A stretch of DNA of 64,000 bases from Lytechinus variegatus (lineage: Eukaryota > Echinodermata > Echinoidea > Temnopleuroida > Toxopneustidae). The translations under genes and the position numbers were made by a program. The stretch spans positions 9,318,140 to 9,382,139 of the forward strand of contig NC_054740.1 of the NCBI RefSeq assembly GCF_018143015.1, in the 5' to 3' direction. Below are positions 5,402 through 56,500 of the stretch, piece by piece; within the stretch, counting starts at the first letter, position 1, and every line of letters starts with the position of its first letter. Under the pieces are notes generated by a model that saw only the letters and a program-made list of their open reading frames with translations, ran no database searches and was not told where the DNA came from.

Positions 5402-6721
5402 ATGTTCTCTTTACGCACTTCCACCCCCCCCCCCACGATGTTGGTATTCCGCTTTGACTTTGAGTATAAAACGAGGACGAAAGTGCATCCTGGCGACAAT
5501 TACGCTAAAGCTGCCGTCACGATGGGGGATCCAGAGCCCATTTGCTCAGGGAAGGATCCGACCCAGTGCGATCTAACAAATCATACCGACATAGCAACAT
5601 TTCTCAGATATACCGACAGCGAGCGGATTCTCATCGTCATCATCATTCCCATCATTCTTGTGATCGGAGTATGTGCGAACATGACATTTATTTTTGTGGT
5701 ACTGCGTTTAAGACACATGCACACCGTCACAAATTATTATTTACTGAACCTGGCCATTTCTGATGTGTCTTTCCTGAGCTTGGCAGTGGGGGATAAGCTC
5801 GCTTTGTATCTTGAATCGCCGATGGTTGACGACCAACGTGTTTTGGGACCATGGGGATGTACTCTTCTATACTATACGACCAATATTTGTTTCCTTGCAT
5901 CTATGTTTCTCATTACTGCGGTCATGGCGGAAAAGTTTTATGCAGTTTGCAAGCCTTTGCACCATCGGGTGGCCAGCGGGATAAGAAGGACCGTCAGAAC
6001 TCTGGTAATAGTTTGGATAGTGGCATTACTTTTTGCCTTTCTTCTCATCCCATCACACGCTGTGTACAATGACTACCAGATCATTTGGCCAGATGAAGAT
6101 GTTTATTCGGTTTTCCCTCTTGATGTAGGGAAATGCGAACCAGTACGTTCTATGGCTGCAAATTACATCGCCAATGGGATTCAAACAATACCCTTTTTCA
6201 CCGTCATGGTCGTCAATTTTTACATGAATGTGCGCATCGTGAGAGCGCTCACGGAGCGCATGCGCGCACACCCTGGTTCCATCGCAGCCAATGAGCGTCT
6301 GCATGGGATCATAAACGCGCGAAACCAGCGGACCCGAAATCAGGTTGTCCGTATGCTTGTCATCAATGGCGTCGTATTTTTCTGCCTCCTGTCTCCGTTT
6401 CAAATATTTTCTTTATACAGAATGATTGAGGGATTAGTCACCGATACCACCTCCAATATCGCAATACGCACGCGTCAACTCGTGTGGGCATTTCGTATTT
6501 TATCTTACATCAACCCCGCTGTGAATCCTTTTATTTATACTTTATCCAACAAGCGATACCGTCGTGCGTTTTTCTTAGCAATTCCTTGCCTCAAACGACT
6601 TTGTCTCCAACATCGCAATCCAGATCGAGCCGCATTAGCGGGAACAGTACATGTCTCATTGGAAGAATCGAAAAACAAAAACCAAGAGTCGCATTCAGAA
6701 AACTCTACTCGATCGTCATAG
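5402..6721 (+). CDS. Rhodopsin-family (class A) peptide GPCR, TRH/ETH/neuromedin-receptor-like, intronless
   Basis: This is a 439-codon single-exon receptor with seven hydrophobic segments. In the frame from 5402: TM1 about 75-101 (GVCAN, N93), TM2 about 111-134 (LAISD, D121), TM3 from C153, TM4 about 199-219, TM5 about 254-278 (P264), TM6 about 314-339 (P332), TM7 about 358-380 with NPFIY at 375-379. C153 and C245 would form the usual extracellular disulfide. NHT at 60-62 is an N-glycosylation site, and C396 and C401 could be palmitoylated. The better start is probably Met41 at 5522 (ACGATGG), because the first 40 codons cross a poly-C tract and look non-coding. It acts at the plasma membrane through G proteins; the ligand is unknown. 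Odd points: the DRY position reads EKF (177-179), and TM6 reads CLLSP rather than CWxP. The closest family by eye is the TRH/ETH receptor group, which is an inference. Confidence 0.88.
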   Translation: MFSLRTSTPPPTMLVFRFDFEYKTRTKVHPGDNYAKAAVTMGDPEPICSGKDPTQCDLTNHTDIATFLRYTDSERILIVIIIPIILVIGVCANMTFIFVVLRLRHMHTVTNYYLLNLAISDVSFLSLAVGDKLALYLESPMVDDQRVLGPWGCTLLYYTTNICFLASMFLITAVMAEKFYAVCKPLHHRVASGIRRTVRTLVIVWIVALLFAFLLIPSHAVYNDYQIIWPDEDVYSVFPLDVGKCEPVRSMAANYIANGIQTIPFFTVMVVNFYMNVRIVRALTERMRAHPGSIAANERLHGIINARNQRTRNQVVRMLVINGVVFFCLLSPFQIFSLYRMIEGLVTDTTSNIAIRTRQLVWAFRILSYINPAVNPFIYTLSNKRYRRAFFLAIPCLKRLCLQHRNPDRAALAGTVHVSLEESKNKNQESHSENSTRSS

Positions 6722-9690: not shown

Positions 9691-10720
9691 ATATATATAA
9701 ACCCCTCAAATAAAGTTTGGAAATCTGTGTTTAGCCATTAATTTCTCCCAACTCCCTAGATTACTCAATGCATATTTTATATCATTCAAAAGATATAATT
9801 TAAAAGGATAATATGCTGGGGATCATGCCATCACGAAAAGAGCAGAATTCAAAAGTGTTGGGTGAGGTCTGAATCGGAACGCTGCAAAACGAGCAGAAAT
9901 GGTCATGAAGGGTCAATACAAAACATGATTCTTTTGTCTGAGTCAATAGAGCCGAGATGAAAATCCATTTAAATCAAGCCCCTGCTTCTGTATGGTTGTT
10001 CCGAAGGTTCGTTAATCCGAAAACGAATTAACGAAGGTTCGTTAATCCGTAAACGAAATGAGGTTCGTAATTCCGAAGGTTCGTTTGTCCGAAAACGAAA
10101 TGAGGTTCGTAATTCCGAAGGTTCGTTAGTCCGAAAGCGAAATAAGGTTCGTTAATCCGAAAATTGAATAAGGTTCGTATTTCCGAAAATGATATTAATT
10201 CATTTTGGTGCTGTTCTTGCAAGATAACAGGATAATAAACTAACGAACGATGATATATGTGTGTGTTGTGGCCAAAGCATGTATTGATTTAAGAATAGGC
10301 TTAATACGCTTAATTTCGATTTTATCTGAGCAAATGCTGCCCAAGCAAATGGTTTAAAGGTGCAGCTAGGGGATTAAGTGTGTTGGTCGTTTGCGAGTAA
10401 CCTCCAGATAATATGATTTGTATTGGAGTGGATGTCCTTTTTAATAAGAGCTTCTCCTGAAAATTGATCTAAAATGTATACTTTAAATAGAGTATTTATT
10501 TTGAAAAAAAAGGAATTTCCCATTTTGGAAAAATAGCATTTCCCTGTTATTTCTTTTTGGGGGTACAAGTGCCCACGGCTACCCCCCCCCCCAGGCGGAT
10601 CAAAATTTCGCCAATGGGGGGGGGGGCGATTTTTTTTCACCCATAATTTCCCGGATCGGCAGCTTTAAAGTTGATTTTTTTTGTTTGTCTGTTTCTTTGA
10701 AAGGGTATTCCTAATCGCAT

Positions 10721-11085
10721 ACATTCGTAATTCCGAAGCTTCGTAATTCCGAAGGTTCGGTTATTCCGAAGGTTCGTATTTCCGAAGGTTCGTAATTCCG
10801 AAGGTTCGTCAATCCGAAAACGAAATAAGGTTCGTAATTCCGAAGGTTCGTTAATCCGAAAACGAAATAAGGTTCGTAATTCCGAAGGTTCGTTAATCCG
10901 AAAACAAAATAAGGTTCGTAATTCCGAAGGTTCGTTAATCCGAAAACAAAATAAGGTTCGTAATTCCGAAGGTTCGTTAATCCGAAAACGAAATAAGGTT
11001 CGTAATTCCGAAGGTTCGTTAATCCGAAAACGAAATAAGGTTCGTTAATCCGAAAATTAAATAAGGTTCGTATTTCCGAAAATGA
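10721..11085. repeat. Left minisatellite arm of element A
   Basis: It holds about nine tandem units alternating TTCGTAATTCCGAAGG and TTCGTTAATCCGAAAACGAA, with a basic period near 42 bp. It is the inverted counterpart of 13655-14015. Confidence 0.9.
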
Positions 11086-13654
11086 AAATAATTCATTTTG
11101 GTAACAAAAACGATGTTGTCATTACAAGATTACACGATATTATGCAATGATAGTAATAACGATCGATGATGTGTGTTGGGGCCAAAGCATGTATTTCATT
11201 AAGAATGGCGCCCTGATAGGCTAATTTCGATTTCATCTGAGCAATTGCTGCCTATAAGCAAATGGTTTAATTAAAGATGCAGGGGATCAAGTATGTTGGA
11301 AGCGTGCGAGCAACCTCTAGATAATAGGATTTGTATTGGAGGGGATGTCATTTTTAATAACAGCTTAATTCTGCTGGTAATAAAAATAAAAATAATACGA
11401 GAAATGATCCTTGTGAGATGTTGAAAGCGCGAATCGCAAGCTGAAACTAGTAGACATTTCATGTAACAAGACGTGAAGTGAGCATTCGGAGCATTTTTTG
11501 TAATCGTGAGAGAAAGATGTGTATCTTTCTAAAGAATTAATGCGAGGGCGAGTTGTAATTTGTTTATATACTGACCTGGGGCCCGTTGCATGAAACTTTT
11601 TACCTGAGAAAACTCAGGTTGTTTTTACAGGAGTTTTTGCCCTGTGCTAAAGTAATTGGCGGAAATCAGACTAACCTTAGTTTTCAGTTTTTACCAGAGT
11701 TTTCTCAGGTAAAAAGTTTTATGCAACAGGCTTCAGAAAGTAATCTTTTAAGGACTGCATTTAGTGACTCATGAATAGAATATATATCTCACGAACTATA
11801 TAATGAGAGCGCGAACCGCAAGCTTAAAATTTGTGATATTCCAACCTGAAAACTGGACATTTCATACTTCTTTTTTGTAACCAGGAATAGAATGAGTTCC
11901 TCAATAAACAATACTTGATGCGAGCGAGAAACGTGAGCCAAATTTTTCCGATTTTCCAACCTGAAAACTGGACATTCTATAGCATTCTTGTAAAAAAAAA
12001 ATAATAATAGCTGGGAGAATAGTTTTCAGAACTGAAGTGGCTTCCCTGGGTAAATGATATCTATATCAATATCATCATTCTAGGCCCACATGAAATTTCC
12101 AAAAGTTTGAGCACGTGATTCACTCGCAACATCTCACAAGGATGCCCTTTTCACAGTATTGACCAAAAGGTGAATTTTACATCTTCAGATTTGACTTTTT
12201 CCCCCAAACCGCTTGCTCTCTACGCTCGCAGAAATGAAACGTAAATATATAACTTTAGCATGTTTAGTGATCACTTAAAAAATTGTGCTCAATTTAGTTA
12301 CTACAAAAACACACAACCTCTTTACACAGATGATAATCTAATGGTGAAAATATCCGTTTGCACCAAATTGCCCCTATTGGCCCCTTTTTTTTTACTTTGC
12401 CCCCCCCCCCAAAAAAAACGTTCCGCCGCCATTGGCTAAAACACGCATCGTCTTCATGGCTAACTGCAAAAAGTTCTTAAAATGTCCCCTTTAGATCAGA
12501 TCAGAGCTTATATATTTAAAAATTCTGTTCGCGCTTCTTGCTAGCAGTTATTATCTAAATTTAGTTACATAGGCATCTCGCTTTGAAGATCACAAACATA
12601 TTGCCCATCATATTAACAAAAATATAGCTCGCGCTCGCATTATTTAAAAAGGGTTTATCATGTTATTACGTATTTACTTTATTTTATAAGGATAAAGCTA
12701 ATTATTGACTGTTAGGACTACCCTTTCAAAGAAACAAACAAAAATCAACTTTAAACTGCCGATCAAGGAAAATATGGCTAAAAAAAATCCCCCCCCCCTC
12801 TCTATTTGACGAAAGTTGGATCCGCCGGGAGGGAGGCAGGGGGCATCAAAAATGGAATAAAAAACAGGGGAATTAATATTTTCCAAAATGGGAAAGTTCC
12901 TTTTTCAAAAATGAATATGCCGTTTTTCATGTTTTTTAGAAATAAAATACTCTTTTTAAAGTATACAAGTTAAGTTAAGTTTTCAGGCTGGAATATTGAA
13001 AAATTTCAGCTTGCGCTTCGCACTCTCATTCGATTGGTGAAATATGCATCCTAAAGAGGTCACTAAATGCTTTCTTTAACAGGTTCCTTTTCTGGTCAGT
13101 ATGTTTAAGCTCGCGTTTTGCGCTCGTGTTAATTCTTTAGTTAGATGCACATCTTTTTAATGACAGCAGAAATCTGCTCGGATTTTTAAAAACTAATTTT
13201 CATTTTTTATTGAAATAACCTAAAGTTTAGCTTGTGATTCACGCTCGCAACACCTCGCAATAATGCCATTTTAAGAATAACTGACCACAAAAAACGTTAT
13301 ACAACTTCACCTTTGAATTTGTTTTACCAAGCCGCTCGCTCATTATACTCTCTCCCGAAAATAAAGCCTAAATATACATTTTGCCATAATAAGAAGTCAC
13401 TTCAAAAAAGTTATTCTCTACTTAATCACTATCAAACAGACAATGACTTCAAGCAGATGATAATCTTAAGGTGAAAATATCACCACAGTCCCAATTTTGA
13501 CGTATGAGTTTCATTTTTTGGCTTTACCCCCAACGAAAATTCGTTCGGCCGCCCTTGCCTTCCCATCCTCATATGATAGTTGAACGGCAACAGTGTCCCC
13601 CGCCCCCCTCCCCTTGCCTCTGCCTCTGCTTTCCCGGTTTTCATTTTTCGGATT

Positions 13655-14015
13655 AACGAACCTTATTTTGTTTTCGGATTAACGAACCTTATTTTGTTTT
13701 CGGATTAACGAACCTTATTTCGTTTTCGGATTAACGAACCTTCGGAAAAACGAACCTTATTTTGTTTTCGGATTAACGAACCTTATTTCGTTTTCGGATT
13801 AACGAACCTTCGGAAAAACGAACCTTATTTCGTTTTCGGATTATCGAACCTTCGGAATAACGAATCGTCGGAATTACGCCACAAATGTTCGGATTAACGA
13901 ACCCTTTTTCGTTTTCGGATTAACGAACATCGAGGTATAGGCAATTTACGTGTTTCGGAATTACGAACCTTCGGAATAAAGAACCTTCGGAATTACGAAG
14001 CTTCGGAAATACGAA
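13655..14015. repeat. Right minisatellite arm of element A
   Basis: Tandem units of TTCGGATTAACGAACC joined by TTATTTTGTT or TTATTTCGTT form the inverse complement of 10721-11085. Confidence 0.9.
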
Positions 14016-15128: not shown

Positions 15129-16399
15129 ATAGTAGGGTACACTGGGAGAAAAATTTTCAGAACTGAGGTGGCTTCCCTTGTTAAATAATACCAATGTTAT
15201 TATTAGTATGTCTCATTAGGCCTACATGAAATTTCCCAAAGTTTGAGCTCGTGATTCGCTCGCAACATCTTACAATAATGCCCTTTTAACAGTAATTAAG
15301 TCCATAATTGACCAAAAAGCGATTTTTACAACTTCAGATTTGAATTGTTTTCCAAACCGCTTGCTCGCTACGCTTTCTCGCGAAAAATATAACCTAAATA
15401 TATATGTTATCAATCAGAAATCATTTAAAAAAAAACTTTGCTCAACTTAATTAACTACAAAGCACACAACTTCTTTGCACAGATGATATTGGTGAAAATA
15501 TCCGTTTGCACCAAAATGCCCTTTATGGCATATAAGTGCACTTTTTTGGCTTCCTCCCCCCCCCCAAAAAAAAAAGGAAAATACGTTCCACCGCCCTTGG
15601 TTGAAACATGTATCGTCTTCATGGCTAACTGCAAAAATCCCTTAACATGTCCCTTTTAGATCAGGTCAGAGCTTATAATTAAAATTTCTGCTCGCGCTTC
15701 TTGCTCGCAGCTGTTATCTAGTTACATAGCCATCTTGTTTTGAAGATCACAAACATATTGCCCCTCACATTTTCAACGAAAACTATAGCTCGCGCTTCGC
15801 GCTCGCATTATTTAACAAGGGCTTATGATATTATTACATATTTACTTTATTTTATAATAATTATTGTTAATAGGAATACCCTTTCAAAAAAAAATCAACT
15901 TTAAAGCTGCCGATCCGGGAAATTATGGGTGAAAAAATTTCGCCCCCCCCCATTGGCGAAAGTTGGATCCGCCTAGGGGGTAGCAGGGGGCATTTGTACC
16001 CATAAAGAAATAACAGGGAAATGCTATTTTTCCAAAATGGGAAGTTTCTCTTTTTCAAAATAAATACCCTTTTTAAAGTTTACATTTTAGATAAATTTTA
16101 AGGAGAAGCTCTTATTAAAATGACATCCCCTCCAATACAAATCCTATTATCTGGAGGTTACTCGCTCACGACCAACACACTTAATCCCCTAACTGCATCT
16201 TTAAACCATTTGCTTGGGCAGCATTTGCTCAGATAAAATCGAAATTAAGCGTATGTTTGATCCGGGCGCCTATTCTTAAATAAATACATGCTTTGGCCAC
16301 AACACACACATAATATCATCGTTCGTTAGTTTATGATTGCATAATATCCTGTTATCTTGCAAGAACAGCACCGTTATAGTTACCAAAATGAATTAATTT

Positions 16400-17255
16400 C
16401 ATTTTCGGAAATACGTACCTTCTTTATTTTTCGGATTAACGAACCTTATTTCGTTTTCGGACTAACGAACCTTCGGATTAACGAACCTTATTTCGTTTTC
16501 GGACTAACGAACCTTCGGATTAACGAACCTTATTTCGTTTTCGGACTAACGAACCTTCGGATTAACGAACCTTATTTCGTTTTCGGACTAACGAACCTTC
16601 GGATTAACGAACCTTATTTCGTTTTCGGACTAACGAAACTTCGGAATTACGAACCTCATTTCGTTTTCGCATTAACGAACCTTCGGAATAACGAACCTCA
16701 TTTCGATTTCGGATTAACGAACCTTCGGAACAACGAACCTTATTTCGTTTTCGGACTATCGAACCTTCGGAATAACGAACCTCATTTCGATTTCGGATTA
16801 ACGAACCTTCGGAACAACGAACCTTATTTCGTTTTCGGACTAACGAAACTTCGGAATAACGAACCTTATTTCAGTTTCGGACTAACGAACCTTCGGATTA
16901 ACGAACCTTATTTCGTTTTCGGACTAACGAACCTTCGGATTAACGAACCTTATTTCGTTTTCGGACTAACGAAACTTCGGAATTACGAACCTCATTTCGT
17001 TTTCGCATTAACGAACCTTCGGAATAACGAACCTCATTTCGATTTCGGATTAACGAACCTTCGGAACAACGAACCTTATTTCGTTTTCAGATTATCGAAC
17101 CTTCGGAACAACGAACCGTATTTCGTTTTCGGAATAACGCCATAAATGTTCGGATTAACGAACCCTTTTTCGTTTTCGGATTAACGAACATCGAGGTATA
17201 GGCAATTTACGTTTTGCGGAATTACGAACATTCGGAATAAAGAACCTTCGGAATT
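16400..17255. repeat. 42-bp minisatellite, right arm of element B
   Basis: About twenty units of the TTCGGAYTAACGAACC + TTATTTCGTT pattern are present, with a 42-bp period. Because 42 is a multiple of three, the array leaves a long open frame (16357-17145) of a 14-residue repeat (NLRINEPYFVFGLT). I do not regard this as a gene. Confidence 0.9.
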
Positions 17256-17339
17256 ACAAGTGTAACCGGATTGATCGAGGCGTGATTTGATATACCCATG
17301 CATGTTTGTTTGTTATGTGTTTGCTTGTGCAGAGGTGTG

Positions 17340-18304
17340 TTCGATTCCATATTAATGTTGATGAATTGAATTGAATTGAATTTATTACAGAACGTCACCG
17401 GCAATTGCCAACATTTTGTTCAAAACAAGAAAATATATACATAAACAGATAAACAAAGACAAAATAGTATTTTTTGTCAAACAAAAACAAAATCAAAACA
17501 AAATATAACAAAGCAACTTATATATAAAAATATACACTATAAACATAGGCATTATTCGGGTACTCATTTTAACAATGAGTAAAAAAGAAAAAAAAAGCTG
17601 ATGTCCAAGAGAGGACAAGGAAAACACAAGGAAAGTGGGAGAGGAGAGGGAAATAAAGAGGAAAGAAGTTCGAAAATAGAGAGGACGGGAGAGAGGAAGA
17701 GTGAGAAGAATGGCATCATCACATGTAAACTTATTGTGTAAGAATATTGCGAGTGTATAAATTCAAAGTGTTTGCCGGTTGATATTTTTAGTACTCAGAA
17801 TTCCCCCCTAATATTAATTATGTTTTGGACAAAAGAACAAAATAATTTAATTAATGCATCAGTTTCCAATTTCATGATGTAAATAAATTTTTCCTGGTAC
17901 TCCATTTCAGAAAACCTAATATTAATGGTACTTATCTTTTCAAAAAAATCTTTGCGCAAATCATTATATTTATTACATTTCATTATAATGTGAAACTCAT
18001 CCCCCACCAAATTCAAATTACAATCCTCACAAAATCTCAGGTTAGATGGTATCTTCTCCGGTCTTTTGTACCTCCCTGTTTCTATTGGTAGATTATGAGC
18101 GCTCAGTCGGAGCTTGGTTATATTTTTTCTCAAATTGACAATGTTAAGGTGCATGAAAATAATTAAAAGGAACCGTTGAGAAACTCGCTCATAACCACTA
18201 AAAAAAAGAATAGTGATTTTCAATATTGTGTCATTTTGCAACTTTTGAATTTTGACCTTGCCCCACATTTCAAGGCACTGTACCTCAATATGAACGATAG
18301 TCAC
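17340..18304 (-). pseudogene. LINE 3' fragment with C-terminal Cys/His domain
   Basis: The minus-strand frame at 17795-18304 contains LRLSAHNLPIETGRY, then RFCEDCNLNLVGDEFH and MKCNKYNDLR. This is the zinc-knuckle-like C-terminus common in LINE ORF2 proteins (LxxSxHxLxIExGRY...CxxC...DExHFLxxCxxYxxLR). Downstream in the LINE direction are a long AT-rich 3' UTR and a (TTCAA)n-type tail near 17345-17372. The 5' part is missing. The segment at 18412-18655 repeats 18160-18410, a tandem duplication of part of it. Confidence 0.75.
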
Positions 18305-18655
18305 TTCATGTAGGGTATAATTTTAAAGAAAATAAGAAAATTAAATGATCTATTCATTGATATTAAATACACATTGATATTTACTGAAACCCATGAGGAA
18401 TTATCGATCAAAGTCAAAAGAAACCGCTGAGAAACTCACTCATCACCACGGAAAAAAGAACAGTGACTTTCAATATTGTGCCATTTTGCAGCTTTTGAAT
18501 TTGACCGTGTCCCACATTTCACTGCACCTCCATATGAACCATAATCATGTCTTGTAGGGCATCATTTAAAGAGAATTAAATGTTCTATTCATTGATATCA
18601 ATTACACATTGATATTTACTAAAACCGAGGTGGAATTAGCGATCAAAGTCATATT
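18160..18655. repeat. Tandem duplication of about 250 bp within the LINE remnant
   Basis: The block with GAGAAACTCGCTCATAACCAC, CAATATTGTGTCATTTTGCA and GATATTTACT at 18160-18410 recurs in diverged form at 18412-18655, in the same orientation. Confidence 0.8.

Positions 18656-18675: not shown

Positions 18676-18742
<67 letters not shown>
18676..18742. repeat. (AT)n microsatellite
   Basis: Pure TA dinucleotides lie directly upstream of the ribozyme-like hairpin. Confidence 0.95.
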
Positions 18743-18748
<6 letters not shown>

Positions 18749-18752
18749 TATG

Positions 18753-18892
18753 ATTTATTGGTTGGATTGCTTAACTAAGCTATAGTCGTACAGACTGTTT
18801 CACCCTTAAGGCTCATCAGCGGACTCTGCTGATGAGCCTTAGGGTGAAACAGTTTGTACGACAGCTTAGTTAAGCAATCCAACCAATAAATT
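18753..18892. ncRNA. Palindrome carrying hammerhead-ribozyme-like cores on both strands
   Basis: Two arms of about 65 bp are near-perfect inverted copies. The right arm on the plus strand has CTGATGA (18829-18835), a short stem II (GCC / GGT with loop TTAG), GAAA (18846-18849), a 3-bp stem III (ACA/TGT, loop GTT) and GTA, which would be the cleavage triplet (18856-18858). The left arm has the same core on the minus strand, starting at 18819 and ending near 18788. Stem I can form with a bulge on the minus strand (C-G plus GACT/AGTC) but is weak on the plus strand. Hammerheads with a tiny stem III are known from Penelope-like retroelements and animal retrozymes. Both the family link and activity are inferences. 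Confidence 0.5.
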
Positions 18893-19079
18893 ATTTATAC
18901 TCAGCTCCTACAGAGTCGAGCACTATTAGATATTGCAGTATATCACTACTTACTTACTTACCTATATATACTTATAAATCCACGCATGAGTGAGTAAAAA
19001 CAAATTGAAGAAATGATAGCAAAAAATCATTTGGCTGAGGGAATCAAAATTTCTCATGAGGAGGATTCACATCTCACTA

Positions 19080-21055: not shown

Positions 21056-22412
21056 TAGCCCAAACGTAAATGGGCCCAAACAATATTAACCCCCGTTTTT
21101 GTCTCACCTGCATAGCAGAGTGAGACTATAGGCGCCGCTTTTCCGACGGCTGCGTCAACATCAAATCTTAACCTGAGGTTAAGTTTTTTAAATGACATCA
21201 TAACTTAGAAAGTATATGGACCTAGTTCATGAAACTTGGCCATAAGGTTAATCAAGTAATACTGAACATCCTATTGGAGTTTCATGTCACATGACCAAGG
21301 TCAAAGGTCATTTAGGGTCAATGAACTTAGACCATGTTGGAGGAATCAACATCAAAATCTTAACCTGAGGTTAAGTTTTTGAAATGTCATCATAACTTAG
21401 AAAATATATGGACCTAGTTCATGAAACTTGGACATAAGGTTAATCAAGTATCACTGAACATCCTGCATGAGTTTTATGTCACATGACCAAGGTCAAAGGT
21501 CATTTAGGGTCAATGAACTTTGGCCGAATTGGGGGTATCTGTTGAATTCCCATCATAACTTTGAAAGTTTATTGGTCTAGTTCGTAAAACTTGGACATTA
21601 GAGTAATCAAGTATCACTGAACATCCTGTGCGCATTTCAGGTCACATGACCAAGGTCAAAGGTCAATGAACTTTGGCCGAATTGGGTGTATCTGTTGAAT
21701 TACCATCATATCTCTGTCAGTTTATTGGTCTAGTTCATAAAAATTGGACATAAGAGTAACCATGTATCACTGAACATCTTGTGTGAGTTAGAGTAGTTTT
21801 CAAATTCAGCATTGCTGCTATATTGAACCGCGTGATGCAGGTGAGACGGCCAGAGGCATTCCACTTGTTTATAAAGGTCCTTATATTTATTAAATAAATA
21901 GTACTAAATTTGAAAGAAAAAAAAACATAAGAGCACGAGCTATTTCTTACCCAGTCTGTTTACATCGCCATTTTGGAGTGTTTTGTTATCGATACCAAGA
22001 TACCACACACGTCTAGAGCTGCCAACTTAGATTTAAAAAATACTTGAATCGGCCGATAAATATAATGAATCGTAAAATACTTGTTTCGGTCGATAAATAT
22101 CATGGGTCGATAAATATCATAAAAAGTGCTAAATGATATTTATTGACTGAAACAAGTATTTTACAATTCATAATATCTATTGGCTGATGTATTTTTTAAA
22201 TCTTAGACTGCAGCTCTACACGCGTGTGGTATCTTGTTATCGATAACAAAAGGTTCCAAAATGGCGATGTAAACAGACTGGGTAAGTAAACGCTCATGCT
22301 CTTATGTTTTTTTGTCAAATTTAGTACTCTTTATTTAATGAAATATAATGACCTTTATTAAAAACGGGGGAGGGGGTTAATATTGTTTGGGCCCATTTAT
22401 GTTAGTTTGGGC
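21056..22412. mobile_element. 1.36-kb palindromic element interrupted by a GTCTCACCTGC repeat
   Basis: The left arm (AGCCCAAACGTAAATGGGCC, then AACAATATTAACCCCCG, ... AGTACTAAATTT, ACCCAGTCTGTTTACATCGCC) is mirrored by the right arm (GGCGATGTAAACAGACTGGG, AAATTTAGTACT, GGGGTTAATATTGTTTGGGC). The centre is near 22110. The repeat at 21096-21869 lies only in the left arm, so it inserted later. No coding capacity was seen. Confidence 0.7.
21096..21869 (+). repeat. GTCTCACCTGC-ended repeat, copy 1
   Basis: It starts TTTTTGTCTCACCTGC, followed by GTGAGACTATAGGCGCCGC. It ends GATGCAGGTGAGACGGCC, then AGAGGCATTCCACTTGTT. The interior is about four diverged tandem units of 160-190 bp. Each has AACTTGGACATAAG, ATCACTGAACATCCTG and CACATGACCAAGGTCAAAGG. 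GTCTCACCTGC and GCAGGTGAGAC form inverted ends. Three perfect AGGTCAAAGGTCA motifs are present. It is inserted into the left arm of the palindrome. Confidence 0.85.
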
Positions 22413-28926: not shown

Positions 28927-30035
28927 TTTTTGTCTCACCTGCGAAGCAAAGTGAGACTATAGGCGCCGCTTTTCCGACGGCGGCGGCGGCGGCGTCAACA
29001 TCAAATCTTAACCTGAGGTTAAGTTTTTGAAATGACGTCATAACTTAGAAAGTATATGGACCTATTTAATAAAACTTGGCCATAAGGTTAATCAAGTATT
29101 ACTGAACATCCTATTAGAGTTTCATGTCACATGACCAAGGTCAAAGGTCATTTAGGGTCAATGAACTTAGACCATGTTGGAGGAATCAACATCGAAATCT
29201 TAACCTGAGGTTAAGTTTTTGAAATGTCATCATAACTTAGAAAATATATGGACCTAGTTCATGAAACTTGGACATAAGGTTAATCAAGTATCACTGAACA
29301 TCCTGCATGAGTTTCACGTCACATGACCAAGGTCAAAGGTCATTTAGGGTCAATGAACTTTGGCCGAATTGGGGATATCTGTTGAATTCCCATCATAACT
29401 TTGAAAGTTTATGGATCTGATTCATGAAACTTGGACATAATAGTAATCAAGCATCACTGAAAATTTTGTGCAAGTTTCAGGTCTCATGATTAAGGTCAAA
29501 GGTTATTTAGGGTCAATGAACTTTGGCCGAATCGGGGGTATCTGTTGAATTACCATCATAACTTTGAAAGTTTATTGGTCTACTTCATTAAACTTGGACA
29601 TTAGAGTAATCAAGTATCACTGAACATCCTGTGCGCGTTTCAGGTCACATGACCAAGGTCAAATGTCAATGAACTTTGGCCGAATTGGGTGTATCTGTTG
29701 AATTACCATCATAACTTTGAAAGTTTATGGATCTGATTCATGAAACTTGTACATAAGAGTAATCAAGTATCACTGAACATTCTGTTCGAGTTTCAGGTCA
29801 CATGATCAAGGTCAAAGGTCATGTAAGGTCAATGAACTTTGTCCATGTTGGGGTTTTTTGTTGAATAACCATCATATCTCTGTAAGTTTATTGGTCTAGT
29901 TCATAAAAAGTGGACATAAGAGTAACCATGTATCACTGAACATCTTGTGCGAGTTAGAGTAGTATTCAAAGTCAGCACTGCTGCTATATTGAACCGCGTG
30001 ATGCAGGTGAGATGGCCAGAGGCATTCCACTTGTT
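28927..30035 (+). repeat. GTCTCACCTGC-ended repeat, copy 2 (longest intact copy)
   Basis: It has the same ends as copy 1 with about six internal 160-190 bp units, and a (GGC)n expansion at 28976-28995. Three perfect and two imperfect AGGTCAAAGGTCA motifs are present. Confidence 0.88.
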
Positions 30036-53500: not shown

Positions 53501-56500
53501 TGAATAAAAAATATGTGCCAAAGGATTCTGGAAGAAATTGTGTAATTGCTGAGAAATAAGCAAAATAAGCGCGGATTCGGTCACTTGCGTCGGGTCTTTA
53601 TTCCAGCAATAATGATACACTGTCCCACGTGTGCCTATCTGTGTTGGTGATCTTCAGTGTGAACATTTTTCAGGGTAGATTTCAAGATTTCACAAACTTC
53701 AGTTTATGTAACTGTATCAGATCTAGATCCTCCATGATATACTGACAATTCAGCATGGTTTTACAGACTTTCTCATGAAATCAGTGTTTACTGCAACTAC
53801 TGGCATTTCTCTTTAAGGCCACCGCATACCTTACGACTGTTCGCGATCCGATTTTTTAATCGCATTTTCCTAATTTTCTGAAAACGTGAATGGAACATAT
53901 CATTTTATTTGAGGTTAAAATTGATTGAAAGAATAGTAATATAACCATTTTTGTCTCACCTGCGAAGCAAAGTGAGACTATAGGCGCGGCTTTTCCGACG
54001 GCGGTGGCGTCAACATCAAATCTTAACCTGAGGTTAAGTTTTTGAAATGTCATCATAACTTAGAAAATATATGGACCTAGTTCATGAATCTTGGACGTAA
54101 GGTTGATCAAGAATCACTGAACATCCTGCATGAGTTTCACATCACATGACCAAGGTCAAAGGTCATTGGCCGAATTGGGGATATCTGTTGAATTCCCATC
54201 ATAACTTTGAAAGTTTATGGATCTGATTCATGAAACTTAGACATGATAGTAATCAAGCATCACTGAAAATTTTGTGCAAGTTTCAGGTCTCATGATTAAG
54301 GTCAAAGGTCATTTAGGGTCAATGAACTTTGGCCGAATCGGGGGTATCTGTTGAATTACCATCATAACTTTGAAAGTTTATTGGTCTAGTTCATTAAACT
54401 TGGACATTAGAGTAATCAAGTATCACTGAACATCCTGTTCGAGTTTCAGGTCACATGATTAAGGTCAAAGATCATGTAAGGTCAATGAACTTTGGCCATG
54501 TTGGGGTTTTTTGTTGAATAACCATCATATCTCTGTAAGTTTATAAAAAGTGGACATAAGAGTAACCATGTATCACTGAACATCTCGTGCGAGTTAGAGT
54601 AGTATTCAAAGTCAGCACTGCTTCTATATTGAACCGCGTGATGCAGGTGAGACGGCCAGAGGCATTCCACTTGTTAAAAGATTTGCAAGCCTTTATTTTG
54701 GAGTAAAGGCCAAATAAGTTTCAAATCGTAAGACTGCTATGACGTCATTACGACTAGATATTAAATTCGCTTTTATTCTTAGAAGGATGATAGCATAGTC
54801 ACATATTTGAACATAGGTATTCGTACAATGATTTCGAACACTACACAGTAAGATATTCCAAGTCTCAATATTAGCATCAAATTCTACTACATTTTATTCC
54901 AAAATTGAGTCGTAGACCAATCGTAAGGTGTGTGGTCGCCTTTAGGGATCCAAATGTCGTCCGTCCATTGTCCATCCGTCACAAACCTAATGACACATAA
55001 CTCCACAACCATAAGTTGCTTTTCAACCAAACTTGGATGGTAGGTGGATTTGGGGGACCTGCATGTTATGCTGCAGTTGTAGGTCACATGGTAAGGTCAA
55101 AGGTCATTTTCATGTCAACATTAAAGTTTACATGCAAGACTCTCTTATGACACCTAACTCCGCAACCGTAAGTCATTTTTCAACCAAACTTGGATGGTAG
55201 ATGAACTTGGGGGACCTGCATGTTATACTGCAGTCGGAGGTCACATGGTAAGGTCAAAGGTCATTTTCAGGTCAACGTTAAAGTTTACATGCAAGACTCT
55301 TATGACACCTAACTCCGCAACCATAAGTCGCTTTTCAACCAAACCTGAATGGTAGATGGACTTTGGGGACCTGCATTTGATGCTGTAGTCAGAGGTCACA
55401 TGGTAAGGTCAAATGTCGTTTTCAGGTCAACGTTATAGTTTACATGCAAGACTCTGTTATGACACCTAACTTCGCAACCATAAGTCGCTTTACAACCTAA
55501 CTTGGATGGTAGATGGACTTGGGGGACCTGCATCTTATGCTGCAGTTGTAGGTCACATGATAAGGTCAAAGTTCATTTTTAGGTCAATGTTAAAGTTTAC
55601 ATGCAAGACTCTTATGACAAGTGATATTCCATCCCAGTCATTTCACAATGAATTTTTCGATGCAATTCTGTTGCATGCCCTCGCAAATCACGATATTTCT
55701 GGTTATTTTCATAAGTGGGCGAGACACAAAATCGCTTTTGCCTGTTTTCCTGTTTCTACCCCTCCCCTTCCCCCTCACTGTAAGCTTCATTTGATAACTC
55801 CAAATCACAAAATTCATTTTGCGGCACCTTTTTTTTTCTTTAAAGTTTTGCACAACTTTTGATATGAAATTTGCGACTCTCTTATAAACATTATGACAGT
55901 TCTGAAGTTTTGTGAGTGCATGCCAGACTCAAAATTGCCCCCAAAAATGATTTCTTCTTCAAATCCAATGCAAACTCTGATTCTACCCAAAATCTATGAA
56001 TATTATTTTTACTTTTACTGATTAAAGTCAATTTGCTCCATGTTCATGTTTGGAACAGTGTTGCCAATTTCCATTATAAAGAAAATAGATAACGAAAAGT
56101 TGAAAACAAAGAAATGCATACAAAATTTATAATATATTAAAATACATACAAAATTTATTTTGATATCAAAATATTTTGAAAATGACAAGTAATGTATTGT
56201 AATTATGTCAAATGGAAATTGATAAAACATTAATTGTGTTATTACAGGTGAGGGAGCTTGTTGAGCCTGAATTGTATGAGAAATATGACAAGGCCTTGCT
56301 AGATCTTTCATTGAGTGAGATGGGAGATATAGTCTACTGCCCTCGTGTGATTTGCCAGACCCCTGTTGTGAGGGAAGGGAATATGGGACAATGTGCTGCT
56401 TGTGGACTAGCTTTCTGTATCCTCTGCAAAAATACGTACCATGGTTTAGCACCGTGCAAGGTTACAAGTGGTAGGTGATGTATGAGCATCTATAAATGCT

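Follow-up and report, generated by a model that had tools for sequence, protein, structure and literature searches.

What does it mean that a sea-urchin genome carries two hammerhead-ribozyme-like cores, one per strand, within a single palindrome beside a (TA)n tract? We addressed this question in a 64,000-nt stretch of the Lytechinus variegatus genome (the window, from whose first letter all positions are counted), where positions 18745-18899 form an imperfect palindrome of 155 bp, 89% identical to its own complement over its full length and with 42-nt outer arms that are 90% complementary. Folded as RNA, 18753-18892 reaches -110.7 kcal/mol with z = -23.7, which places the palindrome far beyond chance. 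Its features and immediate surroundings, as we read them in terms of Penelope-like elements (PLEs), are as follows.

18677..18751, no strand: (TA)n tract, likely insertion target (Tandem Repeats Finder)
18745..18820, minus strand: inverted pLTR arm, the tail-less end (sequence comparison with genome copies)
18789..18819, minus strand: hammerhead-like core CTGATGA / GCC-TTAAG-GGT / GAAA / CA-GTC-TG / TA
18821..18827, no strand: palindrome centre GGACTCT, the head-to-head junction
18828..18899, plus strand: direct pLTR arm, which runs on into the tail
18829..18858, plus strand: hammerhead-like core CTGATGA / GCC-TTAG-GGT / GAAA / CA-GTT-TG / TA
18900..18962, plus strand: one-sided PLE "tail" (CTCAGCTCC...YGAGCACT...CTTACC), on this side only
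18963..18970, no strand: TATATATA beyond the tail, possible TA-rich target remnant

The window copy is laid out like the rest of its family: the (TA)n tract comes first, then the inverted arm without a tail, a centre of 7 nt, the direct arm with its tail, and finally TA. Its two GCTGATG starts lie 7 nt apart, the (TA)n tract overlaps the outer end of the inverted arm, and the tail stands on the right only, where its 63 bases recur in other genome copies, the left side being without them. An earlier note on this DNA had described two hammerhead cores, one per strand, and both are present, as CTGATGAGCCTTAGGGTGAAA at 18829-18849 (plus strand) and CTGATGAGCCTTAAGGGTGAAA at 18798-18819 (minus strand), running on into CAGTTTGTA and CAGTCTGTA, respectively. 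The order that it gave, from CTGATGA through a short stem II, GAAA and a minimal stem III to GTA, can be read directly in each arm, on opposite strands, and the (AT)n run that it placed beside the hairpin is the tract called by Tandem Repeats Finder.

The window holds other repeats as well. A tandem duplication of about 250 bp with 81% identity (18165-18651) lies directly left of the (TA)n tract, and satellite arrays with 16/26/42-bp units (TTCGTAATTCCGAAGG...) occupy 10032-11087, 13645-14015 and 16396-17257, with the first array inverted relative to the second and third. Tandem repeats of about 150-190 bp are found at 21155-21783, 28995-29955, 54051-54544 and 54990-55619; several of them contain AAGGTCAAAGGTCA-like direct repeats, which we take to resemble nuclear-receptor half-sites. 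An uninterrupted frame of 439 aa with a rhodopsin-type GPCR domain lies at 5402-6721.

Within the window, the core motif is at chance level: the pattern CTGATGAN{3,30}GAAA occurs twice against 1.81 expected in shuffles, and the second copy exists because the feature is a palindrome, in which one arm implies the other. Covariance models gave the hammerhead reading of the earlier note no match at threshold, neither in the whole window at Rfam gathering thresholds nor in the seven PLE relatives tested. A Hammerhead_3 match below threshold (17.9 bits, E = 0.43) covers the entire hairpin and is not a sensible hammerhead. With the motif at chance level and no Rfam match, the case rests on relatives elsewhere in the genome.

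We therefore turn to the genome assembly (G000, 869.6 Mb in 33 contigs), in which the earlier note had proposed looking for the unit and a neighbouring PLE, and in which further copies of the arm and adjoining PLE-like frames were found. A DNA search with the window element returned at least 82 matches (40 of 95 candidates scored), and by reading, 16 of the scored places are palindromic and 24 single-arm; of these, the 15 palindromes other than the window copy and 21 single-arm places were fetched. Allowing up to three mismatches, a pattern search found 92 arms genome-wide, 54 of them exact, with none for the reversed control, and the exact palindrome pattern occurs at ten genomic places (control 0).

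Upstream of the ribozyme, several single arms have body sequence in common for as much as about 0.8 kb, others for only a few bases. At one locus (L027), this common body terminates in a frame whose motifs are PLE-like: YRDDG, a YIGLT region resembling GIY-YIG and a CNC..CPL..C cysteine finger, all visible in alignment A2. The putative PLE identity of such frames rests on these motifs and on structural parallels with the literature. Pfam and NCBIfam named no family for the RT/EN fragments, a PDB sequence search with one PLE protein piece found nothing, and AlphaFold models of PLE pieces (mean pLDDT 34.5 and 36.4) were too poor to use.

A genome search with the L027 frame gave at least 132 matches (150 of 201 candidates scored). 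Seven further close PLE loci, at 84-96% identity to this frame, were fetched, and the arm lies 514-693 nt downstream of the protein match in six of them (L042, L043, L045-L048), being absent downstream of the frame in the seventh (L044). Of two more close but very short frame matches, the one on C11 has an arm about 0.5 kb downstream in the arm-pattern listing. Among three more distant PLE loci, two carry a hammerhead (L050, L051) and one a damaged core (L049). Hammerhead-like matches were present in eight of 13 further distant loci, which are short stretches (L052-L055, L057-L059, L063), and in none of the other five. A tandem PLE at C2:41985842-41987851 (L051), where the hammerhead and tail region run into start-like sequence of the next PLE frame, suggests the pLTR-ORF junction as the site of the tail.

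Are the arms hammerheads? The core and stems I-III can be drawn in body-bearing copies and in other families; the window arms have the core, stems II and III, and a stem I of 2 bp. Across five families (family 1 and f2-f5), stems I-III covary on a hand alignment, on which pairs were counted because stems I and III of families 3-5 were placed wrongly in the MAFFT alignment A1. On the hand alignment, the innermost pairs of stem I change between G-C and C-G, among C-G, U-A and G-C, and between G-C and U-A, while stem III changes between A-U and U-A and stem II between C-G and G-C. The core is kept across these families except at the fifth base of the first box (CTGATGA, CTGAAGA, CTGACGA), a position that varies freely among known hammerheads. 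The cleavage triplet ends in U in L054 and in C in L055, and in families 1-4 stem II closes with G-U, U-U or A-G. Relative to the best fold of the isolated segments, hammerhead folds are worse by 4.9-10.3 kcal/mol, and one of the pairs drawn for L054 is non-standard. The earlier note had likened the arms to the minimal-stem-III hammerheads of PLEs, elements that favour simple-repeat targets; the arm at six of seven close PLE loci and the covarying stems agree with this, and judged by sequence, the window arms look like minimal-stem-III type I PLE hammerheads.

Besides a covariance-model match, the same note had made the hammerhead reading depend on a core that varies less freely than the stems. 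The latter held across families, where the core is kept and the stems covary, but not within family 1, where mismatches fall at 13/784 core positions versus 24/1232 non-core ribozyme positions (P = 0.73; 56 of 63 arms used, seven dropped as partial or belonging to another family). Against the rest of the arm (43/1344), the core is slightly more conserved (P = 0.035). We rejected within-family conservation of the core as proof of selection on the ribozyme, since core and non-core differ equally little; their equal variation fits young dead copies. In two further copies (L034:4060-4130 and L037:4027-4095), the 5' hammerhead half (CTGATGA...) is swapped for other sequence and the GAAGC/GAAAC...GTACGACT part stays.

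Stem I is indeed the weak point that the earlier note took it to be. Each window arm has two contiguous base pairs: the plus arm (18829..18858) has these 2 bp only, and the minus arm (18789..18819) reaches 5 bp only with a 1-nt bulge, pairing AGTCcG with CGACT. Elsewhere, at least four contiguous pairs are found in 22 of 25 single or wide-pair arms and in 20 of 32 tight-palindrome arms (six of the 63 arms, incomplete or from another family, were not counted). The 2-bp stem I on both arms predicts that the window copy is probably catalytically dead; with stem I broken on both strands and the transcript folding as one hairpin, no self-cleavage is expected of it. By analogy with the Anolis PLE, whose hammerhead activity is reported to involve protein (available text of PMC11167929), activity of PLE hammerheads may need protein.

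The arrangement of the arms bears on how the palindromes arise. Among 22 adjacent arm pairs within 6 kb, which include a few duplicated loci, 20 are head-to-head, none is tail-to-tail and two are direct; the 34-nt matches are 3-28 bp apart in 14 pairs and 183-3005 bp apart in six. The fetched loci comprise 16 tight and five wide pairs, plus L065/L045; L081, which looks like a duplicate of L070, was excluded from the pair count. Independence was tested by flanks for the 16 tight pairs, where L007/L014 and L011/L013 proved to be duplicated loci with flanks 97-99% identical. By eye, 12 different centres occur among the 14 tight palindromes that remain once duplicates are removed, so the palindrome mostly arises afresh at insertion instead of being passed on as a unit.

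These counts speak against the self-standing, retrozyme-like unit that the earlier note had proposed, a non-autonomous element replicating as palindromic or circular RNA, which we now consider very improbable. It would suit insertions that are short, body-less, ribozyme-bearing and multi-copy, and a centre is indeed common to insertions on contigs C2 and C9, as another is to L010 and L018. Yet no tandem direct arrays were seen, direct pairs number two of 22 against 20 head-to-head, the centres differ as just described, and elsewhere the arms are continuous with PLE body sequence. In addition, a hairpin of -110 kcal/mol would mask the core, and animal retrozymes are described, in the part of PMC7229834 available to us, as direct tandem repeats.

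Two observations concern the centres themselves. Within the duplicated loci L007/L014 and L011/L013, the central base is flipped (GCGACAGTCGC vs GCGACTGTCGC), as if the centre inverts after insertion, so centres may change once inserted. For this reason, we rejected the orientation of the centre relative to the tail as evidence against self-priming. Separately, 62 bp of the hammerhead arm are repeated in direct orientation within the palindrome at L014:1591-1724.

Exactly one tail is present in 22 of 25 pairs (18 of 20 in family 1, four of five in other families); none is present in L030, L032 and L080, and no pair has two. Unpaired arms carry a tail in 12 of 24 cases, or ten of 21 without likely duplicates (L024/L029, L025/L031, L034/L037). 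At a rate of one half, the binomial probability of 22 one-tailed pairs in 25 is 7.8e-5. Pairs from other families were found with the pattern GATCTTCAGN{1,31}CTGAAGATC, which occurs at five places genome-wide (reversed control 0), all of them head-to-head pairs centred on the 5' side of the hammerhead, so the architecture is no quirk of one family. Inspection by eye shows a complete core on each arm of L077, L078 and L079 and on a single arm of L076 and L080. The tail motif YGAGCACT stands on one side only in L076, L077 and L078, L079 is tailed on the left by BLAST, and a tail was looked for in L080 and none found. YGAGCACT also recurs in the tail regions of several otherwise different PLE families (for example at window 18900-18962 and in L049, L051 and L076-L078) and may be a candidate mark for the start of reverse transcription or a candidate protein-binding site.

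The tails also weigh on self-priming, in which a cDNA or antisense transcript would fold back near the hammerhead and be copied into a hairpin, with copying stopping in the TA-rich arm end. Self-priming has been proposed for PLE palindromes (PMC3846280, whose accessible part leaves open whether the template is sense or antisense), and the centres of L012 and L008 can be drawn by eye as snap-backs with loops of 3 to 4 nt. It would also suit arms that are more alike within a palindrome than between shuffled arms of the same subfamily (identity 0.942 vs 0.926; 0 of 20000 permutations reached this, for 13 of 16 tight palindromes), a likeness that fits a common RNA source and equally self-priming or later gene conversion. 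Centres with loops of 0 or 1 nt (L007/L014, L011/L013, L077, L079, by eye) would, however, need later trimming, and a simple version beginning from a tail-less start cannot yield a tailed second arm. With about half of the starts tailed, many tail-less pairs are predicted, yet nearly all pairs are one-tailed. Overall, we regard self-priming as rather unlikely.

The insertion sites were compared in 19 pairs. Target-site duplications are clear in two of them, 11 bp in L008 (ATTTCTATGAA) and about 12-15 bp in L017, and L012 has an 18-bp duplication inside a repeat. No common flank longer than 5 bp was found in L010, L011, L013, L021 and L030, and the remaining pairs are embedded in simple repeats or reach the edge of the fragment. 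The window belongs to this last group, sitting in TA repeats where no clean duplication is callable; (TA)n or (TATT)n likewise surrounds many sister palindromes. A relic of a MITE-type DNA transposon, with long terminal inverted repeats and a chance resemblance to hammerheads, would also be compatible with the fixed outer ends, the variable inner ends and the TA-rich targets. Such a relic is barely credible given that the tail is one-sided, the arms are continuous with PLE 3' regions, the duplications in L008 and L017 are not TA, and the ribozyme stems covary between families.

We consider it quite probable, instead, that the window feature is a PLE insertion lacking its body, made of two head-to-head pLTRs, one with a tail, through two-ended priming. 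The PLE enzyme would cleave both strands of a TA-rich target, and the DNA ends would each prime reverse transcription inside the PLE RNA, one at the start site on the tail side and the other at an inner site. Each of the two short cDNAs would extend to the template's 5' end, which would coincide with the hammerhead 5' edge, and their ends would be joined with little or no homology. We infer the two-ended priming, the end joining and the template start at the hammerhead; the PLE-like frame linkage, head-to-head orientation, one-tail asymmetry, duplications in two relatives and variable centres at the hammerhead edge are the observations behind them. Both cDNAs often stop at or just upstream of the hammerhead 5' edge, which suggests that the RNA starts there. 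The ribozyme would then be part of the PLE RNA, and the window copy is most likely a scar that was dead on arrival; its transcript would form the long hairpin instead of a ribozyme.

Published work on PLEs covers parts of this route. In the available text of PMC11167929, the PLE enzyme cuts and extends both target strands, and reverse transcription starts at two internal RNA sites, with the tail as the sequence between them. The same text reports no start-site difference between the top and bottom strands, which leaves the one-tail rule unexplained by that work, and calls the later insertion steps "yet to be validated experimentally". The accessible part of PMC3846280 describes inverted pLTRs of which one carries a tail, together with palindromic junctions and duplications of 8 to 10 bp. 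As a tentative extension, PLE RNA could start exactly at the hammerhead 5' edge and the enzyme could act as an asymmetric pair, using the tail site at one end and the inner site at the opposite one; the palindromes might then be the shortest complete two-ended products, a distinct class that is common to several PLE families and can be recognised in genomes.

The insertion route of PLEs and the purpose of their hammerheads are unsettled in the field. Given the one-tail asymmetry and the junction at the hammerhead edge, two-ended priming and an RNA 5' end at the ribozyme can be put directly to the test, and relatives of the window element record how PLEs copy themselves into DNA. More generally, an inverted hammerhead pair in a genome need not be a bidirectional ribozyme or a retrozyme but can be the scar of a retroelement. 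Hammerheads in PLEs and inverted pLTRs are already known. In a literature search that was thin on subscription journals, no title or abstract opening dealt with hammerhead-centred PLE palindromes or sea-urchin PLE hammerheads, and no earlier description of the joining point at the hammerhead edge was found.

Minimal type I PLE hammerheads, reportedly described by Cervera and de la Pena in 2014, are said to have a CTGANGA/GAAA core, a very short stem III and an open stem I. The arms studied here are alike in all three respects and differ in the closing position of stem II (G-U, U-U or A-G in families 1-4) and in the window copy, which is without a working stem I. With animal retrozymes, they have in common type I hammerheads in short, non-coding, multi-copy repeats; those described in the available part of PMC7229834 are direct tandem repeats giving rise to circular RNAs, whereas the units here are single head-to-head pairs. 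The Anolis PLE (PAc, PMC11167929) resembles ours in having a hammerhead at the pLTR-ORF junction, a tail between two start sites of reverse transcription, and cutting and extension of both strands; body-less palindromic insertions and a start-site difference between strands are not among what the accessible text describes for PAc. A further parallel in layout is with the Pen families of Adineta vaga, endonuclease-containing PLEs that, in the available part of PMC3846280, have an inverted pLTR at the 5' side, an optional tail on one pLTR, palindromic junctions, AT-rich targets and short target-site duplications. Unlike these, the tight pairs of L. variegatus are body-less, and their junction lies at or near the hammerhead 5' edge in more than one family.
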